DNA of 43,362 bases from a virus (IMGVR_UViG_3300045253_000096:1-43362), one strand, 5' to 3'. Shown: positions 2,254-39,261, numbered from the stretch's first letter. Made by a program: numbers and translations. Notes: generated by a model from the sequence alone, not told the origin.

Positions 2254-2292
2254 GTTTTACGGGGGACGCGCGCGTGGCGCTTTTGGTCCTTT
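2254..2292 (-). promoter_or_regulatory. Late promoter 1 (scaffold)
   Basis: Reading the minus strand, AAAGGACCAAAAGC (2292-2279) is followed after 19 bases by TAAAAC (2259-2254). The same 14-mer and the same spacing to a -10-like hexamer occur at three other late-gene starts. No TTGACA-like -35 lies 17 bp from the -10, so the box is probably bound by a phage activator or read by an unusual sigma factor. It drives scaffold, coat and the downstream head genes. Confidence 0.7.
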
Positions 2293-2583
2293 TCAGTCGT
2301 CGGAATCGAAGCCTTGTCCGATGACGGTGGCGAGCAGGCCACGACATGTGAATATGTCATTCCTCGGACCGAAGCCGTGAGTGTGCCAGTGGTACTTAGC
2401 AAGGGTTACGTCAGGCCCATCCGGGCGCTCTGAGGCATGGCCAAGTATCAAGATCGCCGTAGTGGCGGGCCACGACCCCGCATCGTGCCTTCCGGCCTCG
2501 ATATCGTCTGCGATCACGCGCAAGGTCGCTACGATATCTTCGCAAGGCGCCTTCGGGCGCAACTCGACAACCTTTAGGGTCAT
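2293..2583 (-). CDS. Small conserved phage protein of unknown function
   Basis: The protein is 96 aa. It starts inside the portal stop (ATGA overlap), so it is translationally coupled to portal. The pattern CEDIVATLRVIADDIEAG near residues 14-30 is a motif I associate with a widespread family of small phage proteins of unknown role. The protein is soluble with no membrane segment. It ends immediately at the promoter box for the scaffold transcript, so it is the last gene of the portal unit. Function is not assigned. Confidence 0.75.
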   Translation of the reverse strand: MTLKVVELRPKAPCEDIVATLRVIADDIEAGRHDAGSWPATTAILILGHASERPDGPDVTLAKYHWHTHGFGPRNDIFTCRGLLATVIGQGFDSDD

Positions 2584-4670
2584 CGCCCTATCTCCCGGCC
2601 CATCCGGATCCTCGGACGCGGCGCCGTGTCGTTGGCAGGCGCATGGACGGTCTGATGAGCCTTGGCCAAAGTCTCGGCGGTCTTGGCCCTCGAAAGCGCC
2701 GTATCGGCCACGGCCTTACCCGCCGCGGCATGATCGCGCTCGGCGGACGCCTCAAGAGCATGTGCCTGAGCTTCTGCGACGACCGTCGTCGGGTCGGGTT
2801 GCTGCTGCTGTTGAGCCGCGGCCTCCATCTCGGCCTTCTCTTCGTCCGTGGGTTCCTCAACGCCCATCGCCACCAACTTGCGGCGGGCGTACTTCTGGAA
2901 ATTGGACATCCCCTCCCCGTCCTGGTTCATCACGGCGGTCAGGAGGGCAACTTGCCCGAGCTCGGTATCTCCTACCTGCTGCGCCACGGCAGCCGTATTC
3001 AACGCCGACTTGACCGTCTTGTCCCGCCTCGTAGCGGTCGCCTCGGTCACATCGGCAATGACCTTGTAGCGCCCACTGGTGAAATCGTTGATCGTGCGGT
3101 GAGATCCCTGCTTGTCGGTGAAGGCCTGATGCAACTCGGCTTCCCCGTCGTCGCCCTCTTCCGACATGGTCTCGACCTTGCGGCCGGGCTCGGCGTAGAC
3201 CTCGCGCGCCATTTCAAGGTAGATTTCGCCCTCGCGCTGGACCGACTGGCGCATGTTGTCGAGATAGATCCCCGATTTGGCGTCCACCCGGGTCGCGGCG
3301 ATGTCCATCGCGCCCTCCGAGACGTTGGCCTTCACCTCATCCGCGTTCTCATCCTCGTCGGTGAGGTCGCCGGAGGCCATTTGAAGCAGCGCCGCGGTGA
3401 CAGGCGATACCTGCGGGGGCTCGATCTTGCCGATCGGCCCCATTGCGGCAATTGAGCCGTCCGGATTTCGAAGAACGTTCGCCAGAGCGTAGGGATGGCG
3501 TTTCGTCTCCTGCTCGGCCCACAGGGTTTGAAGGTTGGGCGGCAACTGCTCAGGGTCGAATATCGGCTTCTCTCGCGGCGCCAGCGCATCGGTCTCAGCA
3601 AGCTTAGACACCTTCGCGTTGTAGATGCGTTGCGAGTCCATCCGCTTCGAGACGTGGCCCCGGAAGCGCTCCTGATTGTCGACGTACCAGCGCTTTCCGT
3701 AGACGGGGACAATCGGGATGCAGCCACCGGCGATGAAGCCCTGGTCCTTCAGCACTTCGGCGCCGGTCATCAGGTACTTGTGGACCCGGCGGCGCTTCCG
3801 CCTGCGGGTGGCGAGCGTCCATCCCTGCGCCCTGAGATCGTCAATCTCCGCCGCTTCGATCTCTGACGACCAGAAGCGCTGCTCCTCGCCTGACAGGGCC
3901 TGAGTGAAGATCAGCAGCTTCTCGTCGCGATCCTCGACCTCGTAATATTCGCACTTGATGACGATATCCGGCGCGAACCAGCCATATTCGGACAGCGCAC
4001 TCTTCGGATCAGGCCAGTCAACCGCTTTGTCGGGCCACTCCTCCTCGAATGCGTCGCGCGTGTCGGCGGTGAGGACGAACGCAAAGCGAGCATCCGACTT
4101 ATCGTAGAGCTTGGAATTGCCGTCGAAGAAGACGCGCTGGTCGGCGTCGGCAATGAGTAGCCCGGGATTGATGCGCTGGGCGTCCGAATCCTTGTCGTAG
4201 GGATCGTCCCATTCGCTCCGGAGGCGATAGGCCCCGAACCCTCCGGCGGCAGCCTCCTCGAACGCGTTGTCGCGCGCCTGCTGGGCCTTGAAGCGGTAGC
4301 TGTCTGCCCGGTGCAGTCCATCCAGCGTATTGGCCGTCTCCGGATCGCTGTTGCCACCGGCCGGGCGGAAGTCGGGAACGATGCGGTTTTGCCGATAGTC
4401 GTTGACGATCTTCTCGACACCGCGGCTGAGCTTGTCGATCTCGACCTTGACGCTGTTCTCGAACTGGTCGCCCCAATCCCCCTCCCACATGGCGCCTGGA
4501 ATGGAGATGAAACGACGGGCGAGCAGGGCGTGAGCGCGAATCTCCTGTTGAGGCAGGACTGTGTCGTCAAACCGGCGTAGAGCCCGCTTGTGGACATCAT
4601 CGAGCCGCTTGCTGTCGCGGTCGGGGGCTTCGTCCAGCGCCTCCTCGTCAATGTCGGTAGATGCGGCCAT
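2580..4670 (-). CDS. Portal protein, P22 gp1-like
   Basis: The protein is 696 aa (P22 portal is about 725 aa). It forms the dodecameric channel at the capsid vertex through which DNA is packaged and ejected. P22-type portal signatures are visible: NRIVPDFRPAGGNSDPETAN near residue 95, then GGFGAYRLRSEWDDP near residue 143, and a clip/wing body rich in aromatic residues. The last 90 residues are Gln/Ala-rich and helical (QQQQQPDPTTVVAEAQA), like the helical barrel that extends into P22 heads. ATG 4670 follows GAGGGG by four bases. It is the first gene of the late block and has its own late promoter. Confidence 0.92.
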   Translation of the reverse strand: MAASTDIDEEALDEAPDRDSKRLDDVHKRALRRFDDTVLPQQEIRAHALLARRFISIPGAMWEGDWGDQFENSVKVEIDKLSRGVEKIVNDYRQNRIVPDFRPAGGNSDPETANTLDGLHRADSYRFKAQQARDNAFEEAAAGGFGAYRLRSEWDDPYDKDSDAQRINPGLLIADADQRVFFDGNSKLYDKSDARFAFVLTADTRDAFEEEWPDKAVDWPDPKSALSEYGWFAPDIVIKCEYYEVEDRDEKLLIFTQALSGEEQRFWSSEIEAAEIDDLRAQGWTLATRRRKRRRVHKYLMTGAEVLKDQGFIAGGCIPIVPVYGKRWYVDNQERFRGHVSKRMDSQRIYNAKVSKLAETDALAPREKPIFDPEQLPPNLQTLWAEQETKRHPYALANVLRNPDGSIAAMGPIGKIEPPQVSPVTAALLQMASGDLTDEDENADEVKANVSEGAMDIAATRVDAKSGIYLDNMRQSVQREGEIYLEMAREVYAEPGRKVETMSEEGDDGEAELHQAFTDKQGSHRTINDFTSGRYKVIADVTEATATRRDKTVKSALNTAAVAQQVGDTELGQVALLTAVMNQDGEGMSNFQKYARRKLVAMGVEEPTDEEKAEMEAAAQQQQQPDPTTVVAEAQAHALEASAERDHAAAGKAVADTALSRAKTAETLAKAHQTVHAPANDTAPRPRIRMGREIGR

Positions 4671-4693
4671 TGCGCCCCTCGGGATCGGGGCGG

Positions 4694-4732
4694 ATCATAC
4701 GGGGCTAGGGCTGGACGGGCTTTTGGTCCTTT
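4694..4732 (-). promoter_or_regulatory. Late promoter 2 (portal)
   Basis: On the minus strand, AAAGGACCAAAAGC (4732-4719), then 19 bases, then TATGAT (4699-4694), 24 bases before the portal ATG. It sits in the only real gap between the terminase and structural genes. This suggests that the late programme begins at portal and that terminase is made from the early transcript. Confidence 0.72.
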
Positions 4733-4738
4733 CGGGCT

Positions 4739-6082
4739 TCATCGCCCCCTATTGAACGCCGTCGCCAGCTTGGGAATGGACACTGGAGCAACCTCGGTCC
4801 TTGGCCTCACCAGCGCAGGAAACAGCTCCGCCAGTGCCCATATCGCGGCATCGGCGCGGTTGGGCGAGCCTCCACCCCCGTAGCCATAGATCGTGAATGA
4901 GGTCAGCTCGTCCTCGAGCTCGGGAAACCTGCCCACGTGCCGAACCTTGCCCTGTTCATAGAGGGCGGAGAACGGCTCTGCGCGAACCGCCTTCCCTCGC
5001 GAGGCTGTGACCTGCCGAAATGGAGTGCGCGGCCTGGCCGTCTGAATCGTCGCGTTCACCATAGCCCCGCCGTAATTGATCTCGCCAACGACGATGTCGG
5101 CCTGATGGCGATCGAAGGCCGTCGTCGCAATTCGCCCCCATGTTGCCGGGCCAGTCTTAACGGTGCAGTCCTCAAGGATGTAGGCGTTGCCATCCACCCC
5201 CAGCCCCGCGACGACTATTCCAATCGCGTCGTTGTCTGCATTGTCGACGTCACCCGAACCGGACGGGTCGACCGCAACCACTACCCTCACAAACTCGGGC
5301 ACGATACCATCCGTTACGCGCCAGGTCTCTATGATCTCGTCGTGGAACAATCCGCCGGGCGTCTCGTCGCCGAACTCGCCACTGAGGAAACGCTTGCGGA
5401 GTCGCGCCGACATGCTTTGCAGCGTCTCGATATAGTCCGACGCGACATTCTCGGTGTTGTCGACAGGGTTGATCTTGAACCAAGCGTATTCGTCCGGATT
5501 GGATAGAGGCTGTCTCGAATCCGGGTCCGTCTTTTGGATAAACAGCCGATAGGTCCAATGCCCTTTGCCCGGCGGGTTCTCGTCGTAGTAGATGCGTGGC
5601 TTCAGAGGCCCGCGGCCGGCGCCGTCGAAGACCTGTTCCACGCTCTGCGCCAGCCGGGTCAGCGCGAGGTTGCGACTCTCGTATGGAATCTGTGAGCACT
5701 CGTTCAAGTAAATGGTCGCGAACTCCATGCCTAGGATCTTCTCCGCCCTCTCTTTGTCGTCCAGTCCGCCGAACCAGAGCTGGGACCCGTTCGGAAAGGT
5801 GGCGAACCAGTCGGTCTTGTCGAGCTTGTAGGCGACCTGAGGGAAAGCCAAGTCCATCACCTTCGGGAACGTGTCTTGGATGACCGCAGCCTTTACCGAG
5901 TTGAACCGGTAGCGGAATATCACATGGCGCGAGGCGGGCGCCTTCAAGGCCCTCATGATGATGTTGCGGACGAGAAGGAACGTTTTCCCTGATCGCGAAC
6001 CACCGAATAGCATTATGTGCTTGGCATCGCCGGCTAGAACGGCTTGAGCCTCCTGCTGCTTCGCGGTCAGCCTGAACGTCAC
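4739..6082 (-). CDS. Terminase large subunit
   Basis: The 447-aa packaging ATPase and nuclease pumps DNA into the procapsid and cuts the concatemer. Walker A GGSRSGKT is at residues 27-34. A Walker B/catalytic segment ATIYLNECSQIP lies near residue 123. The C-terminal RNase H-like nuclease shows VVVAVDPSGSG near residue 269, DIVVGEINYGG near residue 331 and SPNRADAAIWAL near the end, supplying the metal-binding acidic residues. It overlaps the small subunit gene by four bases (ATGA). The gene order TerS-TerL-portal-scaffold-coat is that of P22, which packages by the headful mechanism. Confidence 0.95.
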   Translation of the reverse strand: MTFRLTAKQQEAQAVLAGDAKHIMLFGGSRSGKTFLLVRNIIMRALKAPASRHVIFRYRFNSVKAAVIQDTFPKVMDLAFPQVAYKLDKTDWFATFPNGSQLWFGGLDDKERAEKILGMEFATIYLNECSQIPYESRNLALTRLAQSVEQVFDGAGRGPLKPRIYYDENPPGKGHWTYRLFIQKTDPDSRQPLSNPDEYAWFKINPVDNTENVASDYIETLQSMSARLRKRFLSGEFGDETPGGLFHDEIIETWRVTDGIVPEFVRVVVAVDPSGSGDVDNADNDAIGIVVAGLGVDGNAYILEDCTVKTGPATWGRIATTAFDRHQADIVVGEINYGGAMVNATIQTARPRTPFRQVTASRGKAVRAEPFSALYEQGKVRHVGRFPELEDELTSFTIYGYGGGGSPNRADAAIWALAELFPALVRPRTEVAPVSIPKLATAFNRGR

Positions 6083-6456
6083 AGCTTATCGTCCAGATTC
6101 CCCATCGCCAGGTGGACATCCCCGGAGTGCGCAACATCCAATCGTTCGCCGTACCGTTTCGGCGCAAGCTTGGAGGCCACCCACTTTCGCGCGTCGACCC
6201 TTAGGCGCCCAAGCTGCGCGTCCTCAGCGCTATCGGCTATCTCGATAATCTCGTCAGCGTGGAAATCGGCCTGAGCCTCCCTTGCGCGCGCGTACTGCGC
6301 GGCAAAGCCCTCGCGGTCATCGACAGCCCATTCCCGCACGGTGCTCTCAGGAGGCATGTCCTCGTCTGCGCAAATGGCCCTTAGGCTCTCGCCAGAAGCG
6401 AGACGCGCACATATCCTAGCCGCCAGTTCCGGTGTGTAGACGGAATGCCTGCCCAT
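6079..6456 (-). CDS. Terminase small subunit
   Basis: The protein is 125 aa and recognises phage DNA for packaging. The N-terminal half is helix-turn-helix-like: YTPELAARICARLASGESLR followed by ICADEDMPPESTVREW, the step-and-select pattern of Sf6-type small terminases. Residues 58-98 form an oligomerisation-type helical region with DARKWVASKLAPKRYGERLD, typical of this family. ATG 6456 lies four bases after the upstream DNA-binding gene, and the end overlaps TerL. It has no late promoter of its own and seems to be the downstream end of the early/replication operon. Confidence 0.88.
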   Translation of the reverse strand: MGRHSVYTPELAARICARLASGESLRAICADEDMPPESTVREWAVDDREGFAAQYARAREAQADFHADEIIEIADSAEDAQLGRLRVDARKWVASKLAPKRYGERLDVAHSGDVHLAMGNLDDKL

Positions 6457-6460
6457 GCCC

Positions 6461-7333
6461 TCAGCCTACCTCTTCGCACTCGCGCGCGCTTTCGGTCTTG
6501 TTCCGAGGAAGCGGCCATTCCTGCACTGGCGCATTGTCCACGATCTTGCGGACTCCGCCCATTAGGTTGATCCGCTTCCACAAGGCGTACTCGCTGCGGG
6601 CGGTGATGGTGGATATTTCGGGCGGGCGCTTGCCCTCGCGAAGCATGGTGACGAGCTGAACCTCCTCCTCGGCAGTCCAGGGTTCCGTCACGCGCTCGTC
6701 GCGACCGTGAGCGCGATACAGGGCTGTCTCAAGCCATCCGCTCTCTCGGCGCGTCAGTTCCCGCTCTCGGCTTAGAGCGCTGGCGAGTTCGATGATGATC
6801 TCGGCGGACGACAGGCTCTCCTCCGAAGCCTCTTCCTCGCGCTCCGGGCGGATGTCGATGACGTCGCGCTTGCGCTCCTCAATCGCCGCGGAGCGAACAG
6901 TCATTACCTCCTTGCGAAGCTCGCGGGTAGACCAGTTCATCTGCTCTGCTCTGTCAAGCAAGGCGTCGGCCTCAACTGGAGATAATCCAGCGACTTCGAC
7001 GTGATGGCTGAAGCTGAGAACGTCCCGGCGCCGGGACGTTTCGAATGCGCAGGTTACGCTTGCGATGTTGCGGAGAGTCTGGAATTCGCGTCCGAATATC
7101 CCCTCAGCCGCCTTCTTGGCCCTCTCGCCGTAGCGATGAGTTCCGGCCGCCCACCAGTCGCCAATCCACCAGTTAACGACTTGGGATGAGGCGCAGAGCT
7201 TGCGGCCCATCGCCTCCCAGGCTTCGAAGCTCTGGCTGTCGGGAATCTCAAGTGCCAGATTCGGCCGTTCGCCGCCGGCAAGATCGATCTCATTTGCTTT
7301 GACTGCCGCTGCCACTCGCCTGCTCCTGTTCAT
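6461..7333 (-). CDS. DNA-binding protein with Myb/SANT-like C-terminus
   Basis: The protein is 290 aa. Residues 34-155 resemble a phage/actinobacterial DNA-binding family with a signature around FEAWEAMGRKL, NWWIGDWWAAG, RYGER and a later LSFSHHVEVAGLSP. I recognise the pattern but no assigned function. Residues about 220-270 look like a Myb/SANT helix bundle (EPWTAEEEVQLVTMLREGK, then SALWKR-like spacing). It overlaps the DnaT-like gene (GTGA/ATGA type junction at 7330-7333) and is followed immediately by terS. A role as initiator helper, partition-like or regulatory DNA-binding protein is inference. Confidence 0.72.
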   Translation of the reverse strand: MNRSRRVAAAVKANEIDLAGGERPNLALEIPDSQSFEAWEAMGRKLCASSQVVNWWIGDWWAAGTHRYGERAKKAAEGIFGREFQTLRNIASVTCAFETSRRRDVLSFSHHVEVAGLSPVEADALLDRAEQMNWSTRELRKEVMTVRSAAIEERKRDVIDIRPEREEEASEESLSSAEIIIELASALSRERELTRRESGWLETALYRAHGRDERVTEPWTAEEEVQLVTMLREGKRPPEISTITARSEYALWKRINLMGGVRKIVDNAPVQEWPLPRNKTESARECEEVG

Positions 7334-8085: not shown

Positions 8086-8432
8086 AACTCCTCCTCGCCG
8101 CGCTCTTCTAGGAGGCGGAGAATCGTGTCCGAAACAGGCTGGAAAAAGAACCTTTCTCCACTAGTCCTGTGTTCGCGACAGGCATCGTGAAGCGCTTTCT
8201 CCATACGGCGACAGCCGGCACAGAAAGTGACAATTTTAAGGTGGCGATGATTTCCGGTTTGAAGGGCCGCCATACAAAGGCGCGGATCCGATCTTGAGAA
8301 GCCGATCTTGATAAAGGAGGGCTTCGATTCGGTCTGAACTATATATAGGTAGCCCTCGCACGGGCCGTAGCGGGTCCGGAGCCCTTCCCACCCGATCGCA
8401 AGCACTTGCGCAATGAGCTGTTCCTCGGTCAC
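8082..8432 (-). CDS. GIY-YIG (MUG113/T5orf172-like) protein
   Basis: The protein is 116 aa. It shows the compact GIY-YIG pattern: GYLYIVQTES near residue 26, FIKIGFS near residue 39, a basic RLCMAALQTGN segment, MEKALHDACREHR with the helix glutamate, and GERFFFQP in place of the usual GEWF. Proteins of this type are nicking endonucleases or DNA-binding modules; activity here is unproven. The start is GTG 8432, overlapping the upstream stop (GTGA). A second, different member lies at 25817-26338. Confidence 0.72.
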   Translation of the reverse strand: MTEEQLIAQVLAIGWEGLRTRYGPCEGYLYIVQTESKPSFIKIGFSRSDPRLCMAALQTGNHRHLKIVTFCAGCRRMEKALHDACREHRTSGERFFFQPVSDTILRLLEERGEEEL

Positions 8433-9803: not shown

Positions 9804-9916
9804 TTAAGCCGCCTCCTCGCCAGATAGCGATCCTGGGCTTCCAGCTTGCGAAGCATCTCTTCTTCGGCGTTATTGGCGCGAGGTAGAGTGCGTGAGGAGG
9901 GGATGGGAGGATTCAT
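9800..9916 (-). CDS. Small protein of 38 aa, coupled on both sides
   Basis: A short ORF begins MNPPIPSSRTLPRANNAEEE and ends in the basic helix RYLARRRLK. Its ATG overlaps the upstream stop (ATGA at 9916-9913). Its TGA overlaps the next gene's ATG (ATGA at 9803-9800). It exactly fills what would otherwise be the only gap in this part of the operon, which is the best evidence that it is real. Function unknown. Confidence 0.6.
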   Translation of the reverse strand: MNPPIPSSRTLPRANNAEEEMLRKLEAQDRYLARRRLK

Positions 9917-11322: not shown

Positions 11323-11325
11323 GGG

Positions 11326-11892
11326 TTAGGCCGCCTCTGCGAATTTGAGGGTTTCGTTTCCCCACGCTGTCCAACCTTCGCGGGGCGCGCGTGCGAACAG
11401 CTCGAGATAAGGCCCGCCGACCAAGGCTTCGATCCGCTCGTACTGCTCGTCGGGCTTCCGGCTGTGCTCGCGGATCTGCGCGTCGATTATCTCGCGAACG
11501 CCCTTGCTCAGCCGCTTCGGAGATCCGCGGGTGAAGAGAAGACAGATTTCCGTCTGCTTGCGGGTCCAGTAGCCCATCGAGATTCGGGCGCGGCTGCCGT
11601 CCTTCGTCAGCTTGCGCCAAGTGAAGGCGCGGGTCTTGAACTTGAAGCCCCAGGCCTTGCCGAGCTGGATCGCCTCCTCGATGTGCGAGTCGACCGTCCA
11701 CATGAGCAGGACGCAATCCTTGTTCGCGACGTCTCGGACGCGAATCTCAGCGAGCGTTTCGGCCGGCCGCGTGGTATAGTGGTCATTGGCAGTGCGGTGC
11801 GGAGTCGCGTGCTTTCCGCTCCACGTCTTGAACGCCCATGGCGGGTCGGCGAGGATGCAGCCGAATGGCCCGGCGGGAAGCGGCTCGAACAT
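11326..11892 (-). CDS. MT-A70 family adenine methyltransferase
   Basis: The protein is 188 aa. ILADPPWAFKTW at residues 13-24 contains the DPPW catalytic motif that makes N6-methyladenine in DNA. KDCVLLMWTVDSH (58-70) and GFKFKTRAFTWRK (82-94) are the following strands of the Rossmann methyltransferase core, and GYWTRKQTEICLLFTRG is the family's later motif. Phage MT-A70 enzymes typically protect against host restriction or mark phage DNA. ATG 11892 follows a G-rich site (GAGGGGG) and lies one base past the stop of the 48-aa gene. Confidence 0.92.
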   Translation of the reverse strand: MFEPLPAGPFGCILADPPWAFKTWSGKHATPHRTANDHYTTRPAETLAEIRVRDVANKDCVLLMWTVDSHIEEAIQLGKAWGFKFKTRAFTWRKLTKDGSRARISMGYWTRKQTEICLLFTRGSPKRLSKGVREIIDAQIREHSRKPDEQYERIEALVGGPYLELFARAPREGWTAWGNETLKFAEAA

Positions 11893-12039: not shown

Positions 12040-12101
12040 CGATCTTCTCCCGGCGCCGGTGCTACGTGGGCGGTGCTGAATCGACCACGAAGGGAATGGA
12101 T

Positions 12102-12444: not shown

Positions 12445-12584
12445 GCGGCGAGCCCTGCGAAAACCGTGGAATTGATCAAGGTTAGTTGCAGAACCTCGGA
12501 TTTGTGTGCATGTTCGCCAAATGTCCGATTCGGACGCGTGCCGCGTAAGGGCGCGGATGGTTCTCCGTGGTGGGGAGAAACCGA

Positions 12585-12788: not shown

Positions 12789-12793
12789 GGCCA

Positions 12794-13014: not shown

Positions 13015-13087
13015 TAGCATAATTGCTAGAGCGTGCAAGCCATGGATTTGCAATCTTGCTACGGGACGAGTTTTAGCGTTCCTGCTA
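13015..13087. promoter_or_regulatory. Three-operator switch region between cro and cI
   Basis: There are three copies of a dyad with half-sites around a 4-base centre: TAGCA-taat-TGCTA at 13015-13028, TTGCA-atct-TGCTA at 13048-13061 and TAGCG-ttcc-TGCTA at 13074-13087. The same motif appears twice upstream of the plus-strand operon. A plausible cI promoter is TTGCAA (13048-13053), 17 bases, TTTTAG (13071-13076). It would be overlapped by the second and third operators. The first operator overlaps the cro start region and the likely rightward-type promoter. Confidence 0.78.
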
Positions 13088-13098
13088 ACATCCTCGAT

Positions 13099-13743
13099 AT
13101 GGGGGACGTAGAATCTGACAAGGAGCTGATCGAAGCTTTGTGCCGCTGGGCGGGTAAATCGGCCTCCGATCTGGCTAAGGGCGCAGGACTCACGCCGTCG
13201 ACTCTCACACGGCCCCTGAACCAGCCCGTAAAGCACCGTCTCAGCACCCCTACCTTGCTGAAGCTTCGGACACGCTATCCCGGATTTCCCGGATGGGGGC
13301 AGCATCCGGATTTGCCGACGCCTCCGGACCTCATCTCCTACGTGCCGATTGACATCTTGCCGACCTATGCGGGGATGGGTGGCGGCGGCACGGGCGAAGG
13401 CGAAGTCGAGCGGGCACTTGTCCCCCGCTATCTGATCGAAGATGTGTTCCGCGGCCGACCTTCTGACTTCGTCGTGGTCCGCACGCGTGGTGACAGCATG
13501 GAGCCCGACTTCTACCAGGATGACGAGCTGCTGTGCGATCGGCGCGACATCAGCCCGGTCCAGCCGGGGCCATTCGCCTTGTGGGATGCGGAAGACGAAG
13601 CCTACGTCATTAAGAACGTGGAGAAGGTTGCGGGCGGGCGAATCCGCATATTTGCGTCCAATCCCAAATACACTCCCTCAGAGGTGGATCGCGAAGAGAC
13701 GAAGATCATAGGGAGGCCGGTATGGTTCGCGCGGCGGCTCTGA
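13099..13743 (+). CDS. CI-type repressor with S24 peptidase domain
   Basis: The protein is 214 aa. N-terminal HTH: ELIEALCRWAGKSASDLAKG and GLTPSTLTRPLNQP (residues about 8-45). Linker YAGMGGGGTGEGE contains an Ala-Gly that could be the self-cleavage site. The C-terminal S24/LexA-type domain has the serine in RGDSMEPDF and the lysine in EAYVIKNVEK. It should hold the lysogenic state by binding the TWGCR-N4-TGCTA operators and be inactivated by RecA-stimulated cleavage. ATG 13099 is favoured over upstream frames because it begins the HTH and lies just past the predicted promoter. Confidence 0.92.
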   Translation: MGDVESDKELIEALCRWAGKSASDLAKGAGLTPSTLTRPLNQPVKHRLSTPTLLKLRTRYPGFPGWGQHPDLPTPPDLISYVPIDILPTYAGMGGGGTGEGEVERALVPRYLIEDVFRGRPSDFVVVRTRGDSMEPDFYQDDELLCDRRDISPVQPGPFALWDAEDEAYVIKNVEKVAGGRIRIFASNPKYTPSEVDREETKIIGRPVWFARRL

Positions 13744-24090: not shown

Positions 24091-24184
24091 GACGGCCTTC
24101 GGCAACCTGCTCTCGCCCTACGGGCCGAGCCGCTGCGCGTCTCGTCGCTACGCGCTTCGATCAGGCGTAGGGCGCGCGTTGTGA
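24083..24184 (+). CDS. 33-codon ORF made of a hairpin repeat, bridging two genes
   Basis: ATG 24083 overlaps the end of the MazG-like gene, and the TGA overlaps the GTG of the excisionase-like gene. The ORF (MLRTAFGNLLSPYGPSRC at its start, then Arg-rich) is almost entirely mini-hairpin element D. Its likely role is to keep ribosomes moving across the element so that the next gene is translated. A functional peptide is less likely. Confidence 0.42.
   Translation: MLRTAFGNLLSPYGPSRCASRRYALRSGVGRAL
24095..24170 (+). repeat. Mini-hairpin element D
   Basis: GCC-TTC-GGC, CCC-TAC-GGG, CGC-TGC-GCG and CGC-TAC-GCG stems. The linkers GCTCTCG, CCGAGCC, TCTCGTCG and TCGATC are shared with element E, which has different stems and loops at the same places. 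Confidence 0.75.
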
Positions 24185-24576
24185 CTCAGCGCCTTCTCAC
24201 CGCCTCCCAGGTAACGGAGGAGTTCAACCTTCCGTCCGAGAGCGTTGTGCGAACAATGCGCCTCAGGGGCCTCAAGCACGTTCCCCTTGGCCGCGCCATC
24301 CTCTACGATGAGGCCGACGTCGCCGCCTTCATCGAATCCCAGAAGGTTCAGCTATGCCCCGACCAAATAGCGGCCCCCGCCTCAAGTGGATCCCCAAGCG
24401 GCAGAGCTGGTACATCGTCTGGTACGAGGCCGGGCGGGAAAGGCTCAAGTCTGCCGGCACGACGGACCGCGGACAAGCTGAAGAGGCTCTTGCGGGAGTC
24501 ATTGGAGAGCGGCAGCGCCGAACCCGAGGAGCCGGGCCGCGTGATCCAGGGGAGGTTTCAGTCGCGGAAGTCCTAG
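24181..24576 (+). CDS. Excisionase-like HTH protein overlapping integrase
   Basis: The protein is 131 aa. Residues 1-56 are a MerR/excisionase-type winged helix: LLTASQVTEEFNLPSESVVR, LKHVPLGRAILYDEADVAAF. This module directs excision or, in other settings, DNA-binding control. Residues 59-131 are read from the same DNA as the start of the integrase in another frame (223-base overlap) and are low-complexity (Ser/Gly/Arg-rich), so the functional part is likely the first 60 residues. GTG 24181 overlaps the small ORF stop. Confidence 0.72.
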   Translation: MTQRLLTASQVTEEFNLPSESVVRTMRLRGLKHVPLGRAILYDEADVAAFIESQKVQLCPDQIAAPASSGSPSGRAGTSSGTRPGGKGSSLPARRTADKLKRLLRESLESGSAEPEEPGRVIQGRFQSRKS

Positions 24577-25451
24577 ACCTCTACGGCTCCGAGCACGCCC
24601 CGACGAGAGCCGATCCCGCGCGCATCGGCTACGCGATCGACGCGCTGCTGTCCTTCTGGGACGGCAAGACGGTTGCTGAGATCAGCAAGACGACATGCCG
24701 GAAATACGTCGTTCACCGCCAGCGGGCGCCGGGAACGGTGCGACGCGAGCTCGGAACGCTCACCGCAGCACTCAACTTCGCCGTTCACGAAAAGCTGCTC
24801 GAGCGGGCGCCGCACGTAGAATTACCCGAGAAGCCGGAAGGCAAAGAGCGGTGGCTGACCCGTATCGAGGCCGCCAAGCTGCTCAACGCCTCAAGGACGG
24901 GCCGCAGCGACGTTCGCCTCTACCTGCCGTTGTTCGTCCTGCTCGGGCTCTACACGGGAGCGAGGAAGCAAGCGATCCTGACCCTTCGCTGGCCCCAGGT
25001 CGACCTTGAGCGCGGCCGAATCGACTTCCGCCGGGGGACCAGGCGCACGAACAAGGGGCGGGCGCATATCCCGATCCCGGCCCGGCTGCTCACCTTCCTC
25101 AAGCTCGCTTATCGGCGCCGGATGTCCGATGTCGGGTTCGTGCTTCACGACAAGGGGCGGCCGATCAAGGACATCGGCGGGGGCTGGGACGGAAGGCCGA
25201 GCGCCGACCCGAAACAGCTACGCGGACAGGGCAGCTTCGGCACGGCCTGCAAGAAGGCGGGGTTGATCGATGTCACTCCGCACACCCTAAGGCATACGCG
25301 CGGGACGTGGCTGGCTCAGGCGGGCGTGGATCTGTGGGAGATCGCGGGCTGGCTCGGGCAGTCCTACGCGACGACGGTCGAGCTCTACGCCCATCATCAT
25401 CCGGATCATATGGAAGAAGCGAAGCGAGCGACGGATAGGAGGAATGCGTGA
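24354..25451 (+). CDS. int: Tyrosine recombinase integrase
   Basis: The protein is 365 aa. The N-terminal arm-binding domain is at about 8-52 (KWIPKRQSWYIVWYEAGRER), the core-binding SAM-like domain at 68-155 and the catalytic domain at 165-355. The active-site set is visible: R204 in LYTGARKQ, K234 in TNKGRAHI, H310 and R313 in TPHTLRHTRG, and nucleophile Y345 in TVELYAHHHP. The usual second His of the LGHS motif is replaced by Gln (LGQS). It should integrate the phage at the tRNA-Arg(CCG) gene whose 3' half is at 25731-25781, 280 bases downstream. Confidence 0.95.
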   Translation: MPRPNSGPRLKWIPKRQSWYIVWYEAGRERLKSAGTTDRGQAEEALAGVIGERQRRTRGAGPRDPGEVSVAEVLDLYGSEHAPTRADPARIGYAIDALLSFWDGKTVAEISKTTCRKYVVHRQRAPGTVRRELGTLTAALNFAVHEKLLERAPHVELPEKPEGKERWLTRIEAAKLLNASRTGRSDVRLYLPLFVLLGLYTGARKQAILTLRWPQVDLERGRIDFRRGTRRTNKGRAHIPIPARLLTFLKLAYRRRMSDVGFVLHDKGRPIKDIGGGWDGRPSADPKQLRGQGSFGTACKKAGLIDVTPHTLRHTRGTWLAQAGVDLWEIAGWLGQSYATTVELYAHHHPDHMEEAKRATDRRNA

Positions 25452-25730: not shown

Positions 25731-25781
25731 TGGCGCACCCAAGAGGATTCGAACCTCTGGCCTCTGCCTTCGGAGGGCAGC
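25731..25781 (-). other. attP core: 3' half of tRNA-Arg(CCG)
   Basis: Read on the minus strand from 25780 to 25731, the bases give an anticodon stem-loop (CTGCC-CTCCGAA-GGCAG, anticodon CCG), variable region, T-arm (AGAGG-TTCGAAT-CCTCT), the 3' acceptor strand TGGGTGC, discriminator G and the encoded CCA. The 5' half (D-arm and acceptor 5' strand) is absent: the sequence beyond 25781 does not continue as tRNA. Phages carry such fragments so that integration rebuilds the host tRNA. On integration the intact tRNA end would lie on the int side. Confidence 0.92.
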
Positions 25782-25816
25782 CCGAGACGCTTTCTAAGAG
25801 AGCGAAACGTCTGATT

Positions 25817-30837: not shown

Positions 30838-30888
30838 TGGTCATGGCCCGCTCCCCACGAAAGGCCCGCCCCACGGGCCAAAAATTCC

Positions 30889-32913: not shown

Positions 32914-33395
32914 GGGAGCGGCCCTCCTCCCCCTGTCGCGTTGAAGCCGATATTGGAGACGATCGCCTCGACCTCGTCCGTCGTTGCGCTGATCCCGGCG
33001 GCGTCCGTGACAGTGCAGACGAAAGTCGCCTCGAAACTCTCCCCGGGGCCACAGGGGCCGCCGACGAAGGTCGTAGAGGCCTGCGTCGGGCTGGTAATGC
33101 TCCAGGTGCCCCCAGCGCTCCCCGTGATGGACCAGGCGAAAGAATAGGGAGCCGTCCCCCCGGTCGGCTGAGCCTCCACGCTCTGCGTCTGGATCGATAC
33201 ATCGAGGCTGCTGTTGACTGCCCCCGCGACAGATTCGCGCGAAAGGGCTGCGGAGATCGATCCGAAGAAAGAGCGTAAAACTGAACTGGCGTCTCGAATC
33301 CTCCCAAGATTGATCGGGCGCAGCACGCCTCCTGCGTCCCGTGCGGTGATGCCAGCGAGCGCTTTCGTGGCCGCGAGAGTGCGGATTGCGGTCAT
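32910..33395 (-). CDS. Ig-like domain tail protein
   Basis: The protein is 161 aa. The second half is an Ig/PKD-like beta sandwich (VEAQPTGGTAPYSFAWSITG, SFEATFVCTVTDAAGISATT). The N-terminal 45 residues are helical and basic. It lies between the spike adaptor and the beta-helix spike genes, all ATGA/GTGA-coupled, so it is probably part of the adsorption apparatus or its assembly. Its exact place in the virion is unknown. Confidence 0.65.
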   Translation of the reverse strand: MTAIRTLAATKALAGITARDAGGVLRPINLGRIRDASSVLRSFFGSISAALSRESVAGAVNSSLDVSIQTQSVEAQPTGGTAPYSFAWSITGSAGGTWSITSPTQASTTFVGGPCGPGESFEATFVCTVTDAAGISATTDEVEAIVSNIGFNATGGGGPLP

Positions 33396-34003
33396 GGCGT
33401 ATAGGTGAGCCAGATATCGCCCGGCTGCGATGTCGGATCAGGGTCGCCGGCAGAGGTGATGAAGATACGTCCCCCGGTCATACCGCTATTGGCGAAGTAG
33501 GGATGGACCCCGGCACCGGAGCGCAGGATGTTTCCGGTTACTGTGCCCCCGGTCGTCGGGATGCCAGGAGAAATGTCGACCGCCTCCCGTAGCGCCGCTT
33601 GGTTGGCGAGGGTCAGGAGAGCTCGCCCGTATGCCGTAGTCGCGAGAGCCGCGATGGCCGTCAGGTCCTCGTCCAGAGGCTGATAATCCGAGCCAATCGA
33701 AGCGCCCCCCGCATCGGCCGCGGAGAGGATGTTGTCGATCAGGCTGCCATCGGAATCGAGAACTCGATAGCTCCAATCCTCCGCGTCGAAATAAACGAAG
33801 GCTGGCGTCTCGCCGTTGACGATGAGCCCCCCCAGCGTGCGCAGCGGCTGGGGGGCTATCTGCGTGCCATCCGCGTCCCAATAGACGGGAATCGGGCTAT
33901 CCTGAGGGTCCTGCCCAGCCTCACCGATGTAGATCCGCCCCCCGGTGAGAAGGCCTCCTCGAGCGTCGACATATACGGGTCGGGGATTGGTTAGTCGCTG
34001 CAC
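33392..34003 (-). CDS. Tailspike adaptor with P22-type head-binding domain
   Basis: The protein is 203 aa. Residues 1-95 match the P22 tailspike head-binding domain pattern: NPRPVYVDARGGLLTGGRIY, IGEAGQDPQDSPIPVYWDAD, PLRTLGGLIVNGETPAFVYF and WSYRVLDSDGSLI. In P22 this fold anchors the spike to the portal ring. Here it is not fused to a beta-helix but followed by about 100 residues of fibre-like sequence. It therefore looks like a separate base to which another receptor-binding protein attaches. GTG 34003 has AAGGG upstream and a late promoter 22 bases further up. Confidence 0.82.
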   Translation of the reverse strand: MQRLTNPRPVYVDARGGLLTGGRIYIGEAGQDPQDSPIPVYWDADGTQIAPQPLRTLGGLIVNGETPAFVYFDAEDWSYRVLDSDGSLIDNILSAADAGGASIGSDYQPLDEDLTAIAALATTAYGRALLTLANQAALREAVDISPGIPTTGGTVTGNILRSGAGVHPYFANSGMTGGRIFITSAGDPDPTSQPGDIWLTYTP

Positions 34004-34024
34004 CGGGCGCCCTTTCGAGCGCCG

Positions 34025-34063
34025 ATACTAGTGGAGGGGGCAAAGAGGGGCTTTTGGTCCTTT
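34025..34063 (-). promoter_or_regulatory. Late promoter 3 (tailspike and lysis unit)
   Basis: On the minus strand, AAAGGACCAAAAGC (34063-34050), 19 bases, TAGTAT (34030-34025), 22 bases before the adaptor start codon. It is identical in box and spacing to the other three sites. It reads into the adaptor, Ig-like, spike, holin and endolysin genes. Confidence 0.72.
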
Positions 34064-34086
34064 GCGGAAGCGGCTATTGGGAAGGG

Positions 34087-34512
34087 GTGAAGGCCGAAGA
34101 ACGCCAGCTTCTCATTCTCCAGAAGGCCCATGAGAAGCGTACCGACTTAGCAGGGATGAGGGGCGTTGATCTCTCATGCCTCTATTGCGTACACGGCCCC
34201 CAGGATTCCGCGGTCGGCATCTGCGGGCATCCGATACACCTGGAGCCAACGGTCGGCGATGTCGTTGCTGGGGCCTTCTCCGCCGCATCGACCACTACAA
34301 CCACCGTCGCGCGCTCTAACGATGGCCTGTGCGGACCCGAGGCCCAGCTATTCGAAGCCCGACCAGCTCATTCCCGTGCCTGGCGAGCGCTTCGCCCCCA
34401 TCTTCCATTGCCCATTGGCTTTGAGCGGCATTGGTACTTCCACTTCTGGCTCATTTTGGGGAGCGTTTCACTTCTAGTGACATTGGCCTTGATCATTGAG
34501 GGCAAGTGGTAG
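34087..34512 (+). CDS. Plus-strand membrane protein (moron), immI-like position
   Basis: The protein is 141 aa from GTG 34087; TTG 34054 and ATG 34156 are alternative starts. The N-terminal half has a probable zinc site (DLSCLYCVHGPQDSAVGICG), then NDGLCGPEAQLFEARP. The C-terminus is one membrane segment (WYFHFWLILGSVSLLVTLAL). It is transcribed against the late operon, fits between the last ejection gene and the tailspike adaptor, and its stop abuts the ejection gene's stop. P22 carries its immI/sieA region at this same place, so superinfection exclusion in the lysogen is a reasonable guess. Confidence 0.62.
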   Translation: MKAEERQLLILQKAHEKRTDLAGMRGVDLSCLYCVHGPQDSAVGICGHPIHLEPTVGDVVAGAFSAASTTTTTVARSNDGLCGPEAQLFEARPAHSRAWRALRPHLPLPIGFERHWYFHFWLILGSVSLLVTLALIIEGKW

Positions 34513-37335
34513 CTATTGGAAGGCGGAGTCTATTTTCTCACGAATATCTAATAGATAATCCGCGATGGCAGGATTGCTGCGAGCAAGGCGGGTAAGATAG
34601 TCTTTCTGGCTTTTGAGGGCTTTTGCTGAGGGGTTCGCGCCCGACCTTTCAGCCGCCGCAACCATCCTCGTGTAACCCGTCGCCCAGCGAACGAACTCGG
34701 GCTTGGTCCAGAGCTTGGCCATGCCGTAATTGGCTGCCCCGGTCGCGCCGAATCCGATTAGCGAAAGGGCGGCCGTAACCGGATGCGCCAGCGCGCTGCC
34801 CACCTGAGCGGCGAGTGCGCCAACGGCGCCCGCGCCGATAAAGCCTGGAGCCGTGTTCGACGTGTTGCGGAGAGCGTTGGTATTCGCCAGTCGCTGAGAT
34901 ACTTCCACGAAGCCATCAAGAGCCCTCCGAAGATCCCTTCGGCCTCGATCCCCAAAGAGAAGATTGCGGGCAGGCTCGGACATGTCGGCGTACCAGTTGA
35001 CGAACGTCTGGGGGCTGAAACCGCGCCCCTCGCTGTTCGCGGGCTGTCCACCCAACCGAACCAGCGACGATGCGAACTCATCCCACTCGCCACCTTTCAT
35101 CAGCGAGGCCCGAATCTGGGATAGCTGCCTCAGGTTCGAGCTTCCGCGACCGCTGCGCGCAATCTTCGCCAGTGTGGCAGCGGCGGCCTCAGGATTGGCC
35201 TTGCTGTCATCGCCCAGCAGCGCCACCAGCGCCCCTTCGATGCGCTCCTGACCATTTTGATAGAGCGTGTTGGCGCGCTCGAAAGCGTTAACAGCCCTAG
35301 GGCCTTGCGCAACTGCGGTGGCGCGCATGTCTTCGCTCATCGCCCCGTACAGCGCCCGCAGCTCGTCCTTCGTGGGACTGTCGCTGAACCTCTGCTCTCC
35401 GATCTCGTAGCCGATGCGCGAACGCAGCGCCTTGAGGTCGTTCCAGGAAAGGCCGCCCTTGGCCAAGGCCTCGCGATAATCCTGAAGCCTCGAATTACGA
35501 AAGACTTCCGCCAGCTTTGGATTGCTCGGGAAGATGGAAGTGAGCCTGTTTAGGGTAGCGCGTGTGGAGTCCACAACTGCGGGCGCCGCAGGGGGTATGG
35601 GGATAGCCTCATATGCCTTTGTCGACACCTCATCGAAACGGCTTATCCACCTATTGGCACCTTCTTGAAGCGCCTGGCCGCCCGCAAAGGGCGTCCTCGC
35701 CTGTCCGTACCGACCCGCAACGTCCTCGACCGCATTTTCGACCTGTGCGCCGACCTCGCGACGGGCATCATTCATTCTTCCCGCGCTTGGCGGAAGGACA
35801 TCGAGTCCCTTCTCTACGATCGCCCCACCTCGATCAGACGCCGAGCCCAGCGGCAGATCAATTCCGTAGCCGCGGGCCGCATCGACGCGCTCCGCGGGCC
35901 GGACGGACTCTAAGGGCTCATTGAGGCGCCCGCTAAGGGGATCCACGAGCGGCGGCTTCTCGGATGCCTGTGCCGCCAGTCCGGAAGGCATGACCTTGCC
36001 CGCGAGATAGCCACCCGCCGCTCCGAGCAAGCCCTCGACTAACGCGCCGCTGGCTTTGTCGAGCGCGTCTCCATCGGTTGTTACCGCGCCATGGGCGGCC
36101 CCATAACCCGCACTCTCGGCGGCCATCCGTCGCGCCATGGCCGCCTTAGCCATTCCGGCCGCCTCTTCTGCGGTGCGCCCCGCCGCTAGCGCCTCCGTTG
36201 CGGCTACGCGCCCGACCCCCACCACCGTCGTAGGAATCAGGAAAGCGCCCGCGATATCCCCGACCAATTGAGCGGTCGGATGGTGTTGACTGTCATATCC
36301 GCTGATAGCGTCTTGGCGGGCAAGGTTTTCCCCCTTAGAGTCGGCGCCGAAAAGCGTGTCCATACCGGCCGCGATCTTGTCGGCGCCCCCCAGGGTCAAC
36401 AGATTTGCCGTGCTACGAACGCCCGCATCGACCGTCTCGAGCAGGCCTCCGCTGCCCCGAGCTTCCGAGATGTCGGGAGGCCTGTCCGTTTGGCCTGCCG
36501 CGATCCTAGCGCGATACTGCTCGTCGGTTTCGCCGCGACGGCGCTCGTCGCTGACCGTCACCTCAAGCGGACCACCCCCGTCCGGATTGCCTCCGTCCAT
36601 GATGGTCCGCTTGGCTTCTTCGCGTCGGCGATCGATTTCCGGTCCCAGGGCAAGGGGGATATGGATGCGCGGATCTTCGCCCAATTGCTGGAAATATGTG
36701 CGGTACTGGTTTGCTACGTCGTTATACGCCTCTGCCCTCGCGATATACATTTGCTGGGCCGTCCTCACCATCTCGTCCCGCTGTTCGGGATTGAGCCGGC
36801 CGCCCGTCGTCAGCTGATTGTAGTAGTTTCGCACCCGATCAGGGACGCCGGCCGCGTTCTGGGCATTAGCGAACTCGCCCTCCCGAACGGCAGAGGCCGG
36901 ATCGAGAGACTTCATGAAGGTGAAAATCAGCCCCATGTCTGTCTGCGCATTTCCGGTCTGGCCGAGCCGCAGGATTTGCTTGAACGTGTTGCGCGAGTCG
37001 AAGAACGACCGAATATCCGGCCGTCCATAGAACTCCTGCCGCAAGCTCTGGACTTGATTGAAGTGCTGGTTATCGCGTCCAGATTGAGCGTTGAGAACTT
37101 GTTCTTCTTTCGCCCGCCTGTCTAGCGGGGCATCTTCCAGTTGCTGGCGGCGCTGTTCGACCGAGAGAACGTCGCCTTCCGCTTGGGCGCCGGTTTGAGC
37201 CGGAGGCCTCTTCGGATTGCCATAGATAGTCCCTGGGGGATCACCTGCCGCAGGCGCAGCTACCGAGGCACCTGGCGGAGGCATCGCTGTCGCGGCTGGC
37301 GCGATGATCGGATCGTTCTCCCACGGCGCCGGCAT
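34513..37335 (-). CDS. Large ejection protein (P22 gp16 position)
   Basis: The protein is 940 aa. It has a Pro/Ala-rich N-terminus, then long helices (DIRSFFDSRNTFKQILRLGQ and following). A hydrophobic Gly/Ala-rich region lies at about 340-460 (TAQLVGDIAGAFLIPTTVVG, GALVEGLLGAAGGYLAGKVM), and a second near 850-890, which could insert in membranes. This is the make-up of internal virion proteins that leave the capsid ahead of the DNA and form a trans-envelope channel. It is the third gene in a row of ejection-type proteins, as in P22 7-20-16. TGATG overlap with the upstream gene. Confidence 0.75.
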   Translation of the reverse strand: MPAPWENDPIIAPAATAMPPPGASVAAPAAGDPPGTIYGNPKRPPAQTGAQAEGDVLSVEQRRQQLEDAPLDRRAKEEQVLNAQSGRDNQHFNQVQSLRQEFYGRPDIRSFFDSRNTFKQILRLGQTGNAQTDMGLIFTFMKSLDPASAVREGEFANAQNAAGVPDRVRNYYNQLTTGGRLNPEQRDEMVRTAQQMYIARAEAYNDVANQYRTYFQQLGEDPRIHIPLALGPEIDRRREEAKRTIMDGGNPDGGGPLEVTVSDERRRGETDEQYRARIAAGQTDRPPDISEARGSGGLLETVDAGVRSTANLLTLGGADKIAAGMDTLFGADSKGENLARQDAISGYDSQHHPTAQLVGDIAGAFLIPTTVVGVGRVAATEALAAGRTAEEAAGMAKAAMARRMAAESAGYGAAHGAVTTDGDALDKASGALVEGLLGAAGGYLAGKVMPSGLAAQASEKPPLVDPLSGRLNEPLESVRPAERVDAARGYGIDLPLGSASDRGGAIVEKGLDVLPPSAGRMNDARREVGAQVENAVEDVAGRYGQARTPFAGGQALQEGANRWISRFDEVSTKAYEAIPIPPAAPAVVDSTRATLNRLTSIFPSNPKLAEVFRNSRLQDYREALAKGGLSWNDLKALRSRIGYEIGEQRFSDSPTKDELRALYGAMSEDMRATAVAQGPRAVNAFERANTLYQNGQERIEGALVALLGDDSKANPEAAAATLAKIARSGRGSSNLRQLSQIRASLMKGGEWDEFASSLVRLGGQPANSEGRGFSPQTFVNWYADMSEPARNLLFGDRGRRDLRRALDGFVEVSQRLANTNALRNTSNTAPGFIGAGAVGALAAQVGSALAHPVTAALSLIGFGATGAANYGMAKLWTKPEFVRWATGYTRMVAAAERSGANPSAKALKSQKDYLTRLARSNPAIADYLLDIREKIDSAFQ

Positions 37336-38522
37336 CAGCTTTTCACCCTGAGATGTCCGTCTGGATCGTAGAATTGCGCACCCTTCGGCAAACGACCGTA
37401 TTGCTGGGCGGAGCGCACCCTGGGAATACCCGCCTGCCCCGAAGGTCCGGCCGCGACCACGATATGACTATGGTCGCCCTCGTCACGTGTGTCGGGATGG
37501 AGCGTATATCCGGCTGCCTGATATTCACGCACTATCTCAGCATGGCTCACACCGGTGCGCCTAGCGATGTCAATCGCCCTGCCCCCGTTGCGCGCGAGAT
37601 GGAAACTGTTCCTCGCGCCGCCGACTTCGGCATTGTGGCGCGGGCTTCGAACCGTGCTCGTGACCGTTCCAAAGCGAGACCCAAAATTCGCCGCTTGCGT
37701 GCGGTTAAAGGCCCCCAACTGCGGACGTCGCGACACCGGAGGCGACATCGGAGGTGGAACTGGAGCCGAGACGGGCGGCGCAACCGGCGCGGGAGATGTG
37801 ACTTGAGCGACCGGGCCGCCGGGCGATACGGGTATGACCTTCCCGCCCTCTGTAACAGGAATCCATTTCGTCGGATCCATTTTGCCGGCGAGCCAGCGAT
37901 CGGCCGCGTCCTTTCCGGCCGTGCGGACCATGAACTCATAATCCTGCTGGAGCTCGGGCGGCGCCTCTGGCTTCAGGCCAAGAGCGCCATAGGCGGAAGC
38001 GAAATGCTCAGAGCCCATGGTCATCGCGAGGTGCATTCCGATCATGTCGGTAACGCGTTGCCGCTTGGCTGGATCGCCGCTCTGGATGTCAGTTAGCGCC
38101 TCAACATCCTCCGGACTTTCGTGCCCTGCCTCCCTATCGGCCTTCACTCTGTCAGCAAGCGTGCGCTCGACCAAATCCCAACGTCCGTTGCGCGCCGCAA
38201 CGTACATTTCACCCATGCGCGTCTGGTCGGCCTTATTCTGAGGCTCCTGGCTCATGGCGAAGGCGGTCTTTATCCCCGCCGCGTGCTTCGGAAACCGGGC
38301 CGCCAGTGCCGCCCACGCTTGGGGTGATGGATTTTGAGAGAGAGCTTCGAATGCCTGCTGGAACGACTGTTGCTCCGCGACCTCTTGCTGTTTATCCGCG
38401 GCCTGTGCCGTGTCCAGGCTCGCCTGAGCGGAGCCTAGGCGCATCTTAAGATCGCGCTCGAGCAAATCCGGAACGAGTGCCTGGCCGCCCGCCAGAATGC
38501 GGGATTGGTCCATATAGTCCAT
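37335..38522 (-). CDS. Ejection protein with M15-type peptidase domain (P22 gp20 position)
   Basis: The protein is 395 aa. The N-terminal 220 residues are helical and Gln/Ala-rich, like ejection proteins. A Pro-rich hinge follows (residues about 240-265). The C-terminal domain resembles an M15-type D-Ala-D-Ala peptidase: TVRSPRHNAEVGGARNSFHL, then GGRAIDIARR and GDHSHIVVAA, giving His, Asp and His metal ligands. It would open peptide crosslinks in the wall during DNA entry. TAATG overlap with the upstream gene. Confidence 0.78.
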   Translation of the reverse strand: MDYMDQSRILAGGQALVPDLLERDLKMRLGSAQASLDTAQAADKQQEVAEQQSFQQAFEALSQNPSPQAWAALAARFPKHAAGIKTAFAMSQEPQNKADQTRMGEMYVAARNGRWDLVERTLADRVKADREAGHESPEDVEALTDIQSGDPAKRQRVTDMIGMHLAMTMGSEHFASAYGALGLKPEAPPELQQDYEFMVRTAGKDAADRWLAGKMDPTKWIPVTEGGKVIPVSPGGPVAQVTSPAPVAPPVSAPVPPPMSPPVSRRPQLGAFNRTQAANFGSRFGTVTSTVRSPRHNAEVGGARNSFHLARNGGRAIDIARRTGVSHAEIVREYQAAGYTLHPDTRDEGDHSHIVVAAGPSGQAGIPRVRSAQQYGRLPKGAQFYDPDGHLRVKS

Positions 38523-39202
38523 TAGAAGCCCGTTCCTGCGCCCAGGCCAGCCATAACGTTACTTCCGCCACCCGGAATGCCGCCAATGCCTCCCAAGGCC
38601 GCCTGAACCGCCTGATCGAGAAAACCGCCGATATTGTTCCACATCCCGGCATTGATCCCGCCGCGCGTGAGGAGGCCGCCCGCCCTGGCGCTACCCTGAT
38701 CTCCGAAGAGCGACGCGACGGTATTCGCCTTGTTCGCCCCAAACGCGCCGACGCTGCCGGCCGCCTCCTGCCCCATATTCGCGACTCCGCCGAGCGTCTG
38801 GAGTTGCTGGATGATCGTCTTGGCGAGAGTATCCGACCCGAAATCGGCCAAACTGCGCTCAGTATTGCCCCCTCTCAATCCGCCCGTGGCGCTGGCGTTC
38901 GAAAGCACGGCCTCCTCACCGCTTCGGAACAATGACTGATAGAGCGGGCTCGCCTTCAGCTGCTCGATCGCCGTGGCCCATTTGTCGTTTCCGTTGACCC
39001 CCGCCAGGTCGCCCAGCGGTTGCACGGCGGCAGTGCCGGTCTGAAGGAAGGGCGAGAAGTCGGCGCGCGTCTGGTCGTACTGGCGAGACTCCTCCCCGAT
39101 CGCCTTGTCGAGATAAGCGAGCATCGCCTGCTCGGCCTTGTGGCTCGCCTTCTTTTGCGCGCCAGCACCGAGGAAGCTTCCGACTAGTGAGAATAGGCCC
39201 AT
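38522..39202 (-). CDS. Ejection / DNA transfer protein (P22 gp7 position)
   Basis: The protein is 226 aa. MGLFSLVGSFLGAGAQKKAS is a hydrophobic N-terminal start typical of podophage internal proteins. It is followed by helical QAMLAYLDKAIGEESRQYDQ and DFSPFLQTGTAAVQPLGDLA, a segment widely seen in DNA transfer proteins. The last 40 residues are Gly-rich. ATG 39202 has AAAGGG upstream and its own late promoter, so it begins the ejection unit. Confidence 0.78.
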   Translation of the reverse strand: MGLFSLVGSFLGAGAQKKASHKAEQAMLAYLDKAIGEESRQYDQTRADFSPFLQTGTAAVQPLGDLAGVNGNDKWATAIEQLKASPLYQSLFRSGEEAVLSNASATGGLRGGNTERSLADFGSDTLAKTIIQQLQTLGGVANMGQEAAGSVGAFGANKANTVASLFGDQGSARAGGLLTRGGINAGMWNNIGGFLDQAVQAALGGIGGIPGGGSNVMAGLGAGTGF

Positions 39203-39222
39203 GCGTCGCCCTTTTGGAGCGC

Positions 39223-39261
39223 ATCCTATCTATCGCGTGCCGAAGGGGCTTTTGGTCCTTT
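39223..39261 (-). promoter_or_regulatory. Late promoter 4 (ejection unit)
   Basis: On the minus strand, AAAGGACCAAAAGC (39261-39248), 19 bases, TAGGAT (39228-39223), 21 bases before the ATG of the first ejection gene. It starts right after the stop of the fibre/needle gene. Confidence 0.72.

Follow-up and report, generated by a model that had tools for sequence, protein, structure and literature searches.

A recurrent 14-nucleotide box at late gene junctions of a P22-like phage and its relatives: evidence for activator-dependent late promoters and a candidate activator gene beside terS

Why one 14-nucleotide sequence should stand in four identical copies upstream of late genes in a single virus genome, and what reads it, are the questions addressed here. 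The DNA analysed (the window, 43,362 nucleotides) is a single IMG/VR virus record, IMGVR_UViG_3300045253_000096, labelled G000 in our comparisons. An exact terminal repeat of 127 nt (1–127 equal to 43236–43362) indicates a closed circle of 43235 bases. The virus is a temperate P22-like phage, whose minus strand carries the genes for head, portal, scaffold, terminase, head closure and ejection. The genes referred to below are as follows.

71–1336, minus strand, major head protein (phrog_283)
1360–2223, minus strand, scaffold (phrog_648)
2580–4670, minus strand, portal (phrog_156)
4739–6082, minus strand, large terminase subunit (phrog_979)
6079–6456, minus strand, small terminase subunit, terS (phrog_1482)
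13033–13743, plus strand, S24-type repressor
24354–25451, plus strand, integrase of the tyrosine type
33392–34003, minus strand, head-binding/tailspike adaptor-like protein (Pfam Head_binding, E 0.0015, under the curated cut-off)
38522–39202, minus strand, gp7-like DNA ejection protein (phrog_598)

By portal, the nearest named phage is Sphingopyxis phage VSN-002 (56%); megablast of the window's first 20 kb against the phage collection gave no match. A tRNA-Arg (CCG) gene at 25731–25803 (minus strand), directly after the integrase, is a possible attachment-site tRNA. The VSN-002 gene annotated 'telomere resolvase' (L001, 14717–15835) is similar to the window's tyrosine integrase (23%, E 2e-8), and its product may simply be an integrase of the ordinary kind. 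An MT-A70-type DNA methyltransferase gene lies at 11326–11892 (minus strand), and the 509 nt between the gp16-like and adaptor-like genes (34004–34512) hold no clear gene, an antisense frame there having weak similarity to G008.

The sequence AAAGGACCAAAAGC is found exactly four times, on the minus strand, at the coordinates given in the preliminary description, and each copy is followed at N19 by the -10-like hexamer reported there. The genes that follow are those named in the preliminary description, for scaffold, portal, the adaptor-like protein and the ejection protein, and each copy lies 46–56 nt upstream of its gene. They occupy sizeable gaps in the late region, if not the only ones as had been claimed, a 68-nt gap before 42306–42743 and a 51-nt gap before the holin gene being unboxed. 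A fifth, degenerate site was recognised before terS.

2279–2292, minus strand, box AAAGGACCAAAAGC before scaffold, exact copy; orthologous copy in L004/L016
2254–2259, minus strand, -10-like hexamer TAAAAC of the scaffold site, N19 from the box
4719–4732, minus strand, box AAAGGACCAAAAGC before portal, exact copy; 14/14 in L002
4694–4699, minus strand, -10-like hexamer TATGAT of the portal site, N19 from the box; identical in L002
6488–6501, minus strand, degenerate box ACAAGACCGAAAGC before terS, inside the 3' end of the gene for protein X (see below)
6463–6468, minus strand, -10-like hexamer TAGGCT of the terS site, 6 nt before the terS ATG
34050–34063, minus strand, box before the head-binding/adaptor-like gene, exact copy
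34025–34030, minus strand, -10-like hexamer TAGTAT of the adaptor site, N19 from the box
39248–39261, minus strand, box before the gp7-like ejection gene, exact copy; 14/14 in L004
39223–39228, minus strand, -10-like hexamer TAGGAT of the ejection site, N19 from the box; identical in L004

The four-fold exact repeat is beyond chance: across 100 dinucleotide-shuffled versions, the most frequent 14-mer stood at two copies in 99 and at three in one, and four were never reached. The scaffold hexamer, TAAAAC, is the weakest among the window's sites and reads TAAAAA in the nearest relative, L004. The terS site has the layout ACAAGACCGAAAGC-N19-TAGGCT-N6-ATG. Its box has three mismatches, which by mismatch count alone is at chance level; we accept it because it is conserved 14/14 in L002, within a 25-bp island of 96% identity amid otherwise non-aligning DNA. 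The terS junction is boxed in further relatives as well. A possible direct repeat in the box, AAAnG-N3-AAAnG, was noticed by eye.

Scanning viral contigs with box-N19-TAnnnT returned L002, L004 and L005, which have the window's box at the same junctions, and one further match, the AT-rich L003, which holds a single copy and was taken as chance. The check proposed in the preliminary description, on the 14-mer in close relatives, thus came out in its favour, the 14-mer being kept at the same junctions where the portals are ~87% identical. When the window is compared with its nearest relatives, all 56 of 56 box positions are identical, as against 50/76 in the spacer and 46/120 in the 30 nt upstream.

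A portal search gave 34 loci, at most of which the portal junction is boxed with different letters; searching viral contigs with the adaptor yielded a single locus. Taken together, some 20 related P22-like phages carry a box, N19–20 and TAnnnT at the same junctions. The letters of the box vary from phage to phage and its copies inside one phage agree; in the more distant relatives these junctions carry another box, with N19–20 to the TA-hexamer as before. The recurring boxed junctions are those of terS, portal, scaffold, coat, gp4-like, gp7-like and adaptor genes, the last being boxed also in G005, G006, G008, G011 and G017. The boxes read as follows.

G005: AAAGGTTCAAAAGC
G006: AAAAGTCCAAAAGC
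G011, G017, L019–L024, L030, L032 and L033: AAATGTTCAAACGC and close forms
G007, G009, L025 and L026: AAAGSMYTAATSGC, with N20
G008: TAAGGTTCAANYGC
VSN-002: GTAATTTGCCCAAATGAA, with N18
G190: GCGTAAAGCCGTCAAATGGC

The boxes were also sought without a prior motif, in 185-nt segments at late gene starts. A strict exact-9-mer rule missed the boxes of G007 and VSN-002 and returned tandem-repeat noise in G009, and a mismatch-tolerant finder was therefore adopted. It found a shared 14-mer in nine genomes (G000, G005, G006, G007, G008, G009, G011, G017 and G190), with scores of 36–42 against shuffle means of 32–34 (sd 0.7–0.9, maxima 35–36). No shared 14-mer was found by it in G010, G012, Sf6 (four gene starts testable only), L071, L072 or L073, where scores of 29–33 fell within the shuffles, nor in G151 and VSN-002. 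A targeted search of VSN-002 gave two exact box copies and one near copy.

The geometry of the sites was analysed in a set of 70 distinct box–hexamer pairs, selected for TA alone. The spacing is 19 in 54 sites, 20 in 13 and 18 in three, and 58 of the 70 hexamers have T as their last base though selection asked for TA only. In 22 sites the first ATG follows the hexamer at exactly 6 nt, and in 10 more at 7–8 nt; none of the 70 has it at 0–5 or 11–19 nt. Binomial figures for this spacing treat the sites as independent, and they are related; when the sites are collapsed by hand, 19 still have the ATG at exactly 6 nt. This spacing to ATG codons independently supports assignment of the putative -10 element to the hexamer. 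Transcription starting 7 nt after the hexamer would, where the ATG follows at 6 nt, begin on the A of the ATG and yield a leaderless mRNA. Within the window this geometry is seen at terS only; at the other four sites a leader is predicted. Transcripts of the leaderless kind are frequent in Caulobacter, where 375 have been mapped (PMC4117421).

From the same predicted start, the box would cover about -45 to -32. There is thus a conserved site at the -35 position, at a fixed distance from the -10, with the box end 19–20 nt from the hexamer in 67 of the 70 sites. The preliminary description had noted that nothing like TTGACA stands at this position, and we agree: where a sigma-70-type -35 would be expected, at 16–18 nt, AAGCCC or AAGCGC is found, and a promoter scan was empty at the boxes. 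On the strength of the layout shared across phages and of the hexamer–ATG geometry, the sites are very probably promoters in which the box replaces the -35, and we are confident, judging from sequence, that a late promoter regulon exists.

A different function might be read into the places where the window's DNA homology to its relatives breaks off. Block ends fall near boxes (2299 and 39264), and at terS there is the 25-bp island (6485–6509); the boxes could be mainly linkers at which modules are exchanged, maintained through recombination and not through transcription. That proposal would leave the fixed N19 to the TA-hexamer and the 6-nt ATG spacing unexplained, and we consider it very improbable. 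With two boxes near block ends and an island at a third, the boxes may serve as borders of module exchange in a secondary role, beside their probable role as promoter elements.

If the boxes are promoter elements, their reader could belong to the phage or to its host. The -10-like hexamers fit the host polymerase, and the box might be imagined to be recognised by an alternative sigma factor or an activator of the host; the layout, however, stays constant while the box letters change between phages, and in two Sphingomonadales lysogens the motif is absent from the rest of the chromosome. In these lysogens, G284 (3.7 Mb, with a VSN-002-like prophage) and G190 (2.9 Mb), a search tolerating up to 1 or 3 mismatches placed the box motif inside the prophage only. 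This confinement disfavours a host reader, which we regard as highly improbable. The G284 prophage, at ~208–220 kb of G284:C1 (L080, L081), shares with VSN-002 both the portal junction and the sequence of X. A phage-encoded activator, as the preliminary description proposed, is the best reading of the prophage-confined box and the shared junctions, and that the reader is phage-encoded seems to us likely with little reservation; a candidate gene is described below.

Two candidates for such a reader were rejected. A GafA-type regulator (PF20057/DUF6456) has no match in the window and one sub-threshold match in G006. A PrtN-like regulator had been hinted at by the VSN-002 annotation; the corresponding frame of the window, 24181–24576, is HTH_17/excisionase-like and adjoins the integrase, and it was set aside for that family resemblance and since it is not common to all box phages.

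A third candidate, which we call X, is encoded directly upstream of terS in the box phages for which there is enough sequence.

6461–7333, minus strand, candidate activator X, 290 aa, assigned by profile and synteny
6818–7333, minus strand, 172-aa N-terminal domain of the window's X

The X proteins share a conserved segment, SRxRxLTxxESxxLExAxRR, followed by an HTH of the form W..EED...L...IA..LgRSe.A..rR...LR; in the window's protein this helical segment and HTH make up residues ~173–290. Residues 1–172 are a separate domain, fused to X in this phage only among the relatives. The domain is mobile, occurring in other phages (L091–L095), sometimes near terS, and elsewhere it has other partners, such as an MT-A70-like methyltransferase stretch in L093. 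The X gene of VSN-002 (L001, 1954–2286, minus strand) is unannotated in the public record.

In an all-versus-all comparison of the nine box phages, X was the only plausible non-structural family present in at least seven of the nine genomes, the other shared families being frames that overlap structural genes in other frames or strands. X was not detected in G010, G012, L071, L072 or the examined 22 kb of Sf6, and L073 gave a single weak, non-significant match. X together with a repeated box, as opposed to neither, divides nine genomes from six (Fisher p 0.002, uncorrected for kinship among genomes that are phylogenetically non-independent). G151 carries X, yet no repeated box was found in it. 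With a portal ~56% identical and neither X nor boxes, G010 (L060–L062) is a useful natural control.

Comparison with known families gives thin support to X as an HTH protein. The window's X has no Pfam family match. X proteins as a group hit 22 Pfam families, Mor/C not among them, and show weak matches to HTH families. A GcrA domain is matched by one of 15 X proteins (E 0.021) and PHROG 323, 'transcriptional regulator, D5-like', by nine of 15 (best E 3e-8), the window's X matching neither. By sequence, the PDB matches are Myb-type and other HTH proteins.

Does X change when the box changes? In one group the divergence that goes with a box change centres on the HTH: L025, G007 and G009, whose boxes differ, have X HTHs 60–63% identical between flanks of 81% and 86–96% identity. 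In L021 and L022, which have a box in common, the HTHs are 89% identical and the flanks 69% and 57%. The window and L002 have identical boxes, yet their X proteins share 11 of 40 HTH residues (~27%), and across the set box distance follows portal distance better than X distance; the partial Mantel correlation of box with X given portal is not significant (r 0.17, p 0.10). The last correlation and the poorly matching HTHs of the window and L002 favour a phage factor other than X, for instance a regulator unconserved in sequence, as the reader, with X acting otherwise near terS. Set against it are the HTH-focused divergence that accompanies the box change in the one group and the standing of X as sole plausible non-structural family common to most box phages and undetected in relatives that lack boxes. 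We think another factor rather unlikely, if well worth keeping in mind. As its X is fused to the 172-aa domain, which has other partners elsewhere, the window's HTH may be a substitute for an earlier one or may play its part in another way. On present evidence X, the HTH protein beside terS, is probably the box reader, a view held with some reserve.

The mechanism that we propose is as follows. About five late promoters, those of terS, portal, scaffold, the ejection gene and the adaptor, would each consist of a box as upstream element and a sigma-70-type -10, with no -35. A phage-encoded DNA-binding activator would occupy the box, substitute for the -35 contact and recruit host RNA polymerase, so that packaging, head, ejection and tail modules would be turned on together. 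The activator would most likely be protein X, the product of the gene immediately upstream of terS. Binding of X to the box, activation in preference to antitermination, and the timing are steps that we infer. For the whole statement, about five boxed late promoters switched on by a phage activator that is most likely X, we estimate a probability of about 0.7, a compromise between the gradings of its parts, which are judgements.

The boxes might instead be places where polymerase takes up an antitermination factor of the Q or GafZ kind, and be antitermination sites as much as activator sites. Lambdoid late operons, P22-like ones included, are opened by Q antitermination (PMC2629481), and GafZ of the Caulobacter GTA acts as an antiterminator from a binding site between -35 and -10 (PMC11150451). 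Telling weakly against such a role are the presence of several sites per genome in place of one late promoter, a late region that is not enriched in terminator-like sites, and the failure to find the GafA-type domain PF20057 in the window. No Q family match was obtained among the subset of window ORFs scanned, in a genome with five boxed sites. We judge antitermination improbable as the function of the boxes and retain the activator.

A broader suggestion, for which we would give even odds, is that X represents a new late-activator family, combining a short conserved helical segment with a fast-evolving HTH and replacing -35 recognition at many late promoters. Its specificity would drift together with all the sites of a phage, giving each lineage a private late-promoter code, and many of the late mRNAs would be leaderless. 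The late genes of P22-like phages are the textbook case of an antiterminated late operon, and a large group of relatives appears instead to use distributed activator-dependent promoters. Some 20 natural versions of one regulator–site system make a joint change of specificity directly testable. If the reading is true, the system would supply promoter/activator pairs, insulated from each other, for use in sphingomonads, and an unannotated gene of Sphingopyxis phage VSN-002 would gain a function.

Among known systems, P22 and lambda-type phages resemble the window in the kind of genes they have for head, portal, scaffold and ejection; their late operon is Q-antiterminated (PMC2629481), whereas the window has about five probable boxed promoters. 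Sf6 shows no shared upstream box at the four gene starts testable. The Caulobacter GTA, like the window, is an alphaproteobacterial phage-like cluster with dedicated activators. There GafY contacts the sigma factor RpoD (PMC11150451), and its element at -123 to -113 and the GafZ palindrome between -35 and -10 serve one promoter (PMC11150451); the GafA-type PF20057 has no counterpart in the window. The 'D5-like' name of PHROG 323 comes from annotation and does not by itself make X a late activator. The Mor-dependent middle (and C-dependent late) promoters of phage Mu resemble the arrangement proposed here in combining a phage activator, a recognisable -10 and a site in place of the -35; the Mor site is a 16-bp element with its centre at -43.5 (PMC4390567). 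The X proteins, which have no Mor family match, are likened to Mor by mode of action. That site is dyad-symmetric whereas the box is asymmetric, and, unlike the arrangement in Mu, one box here serves several late promoters in each phage.
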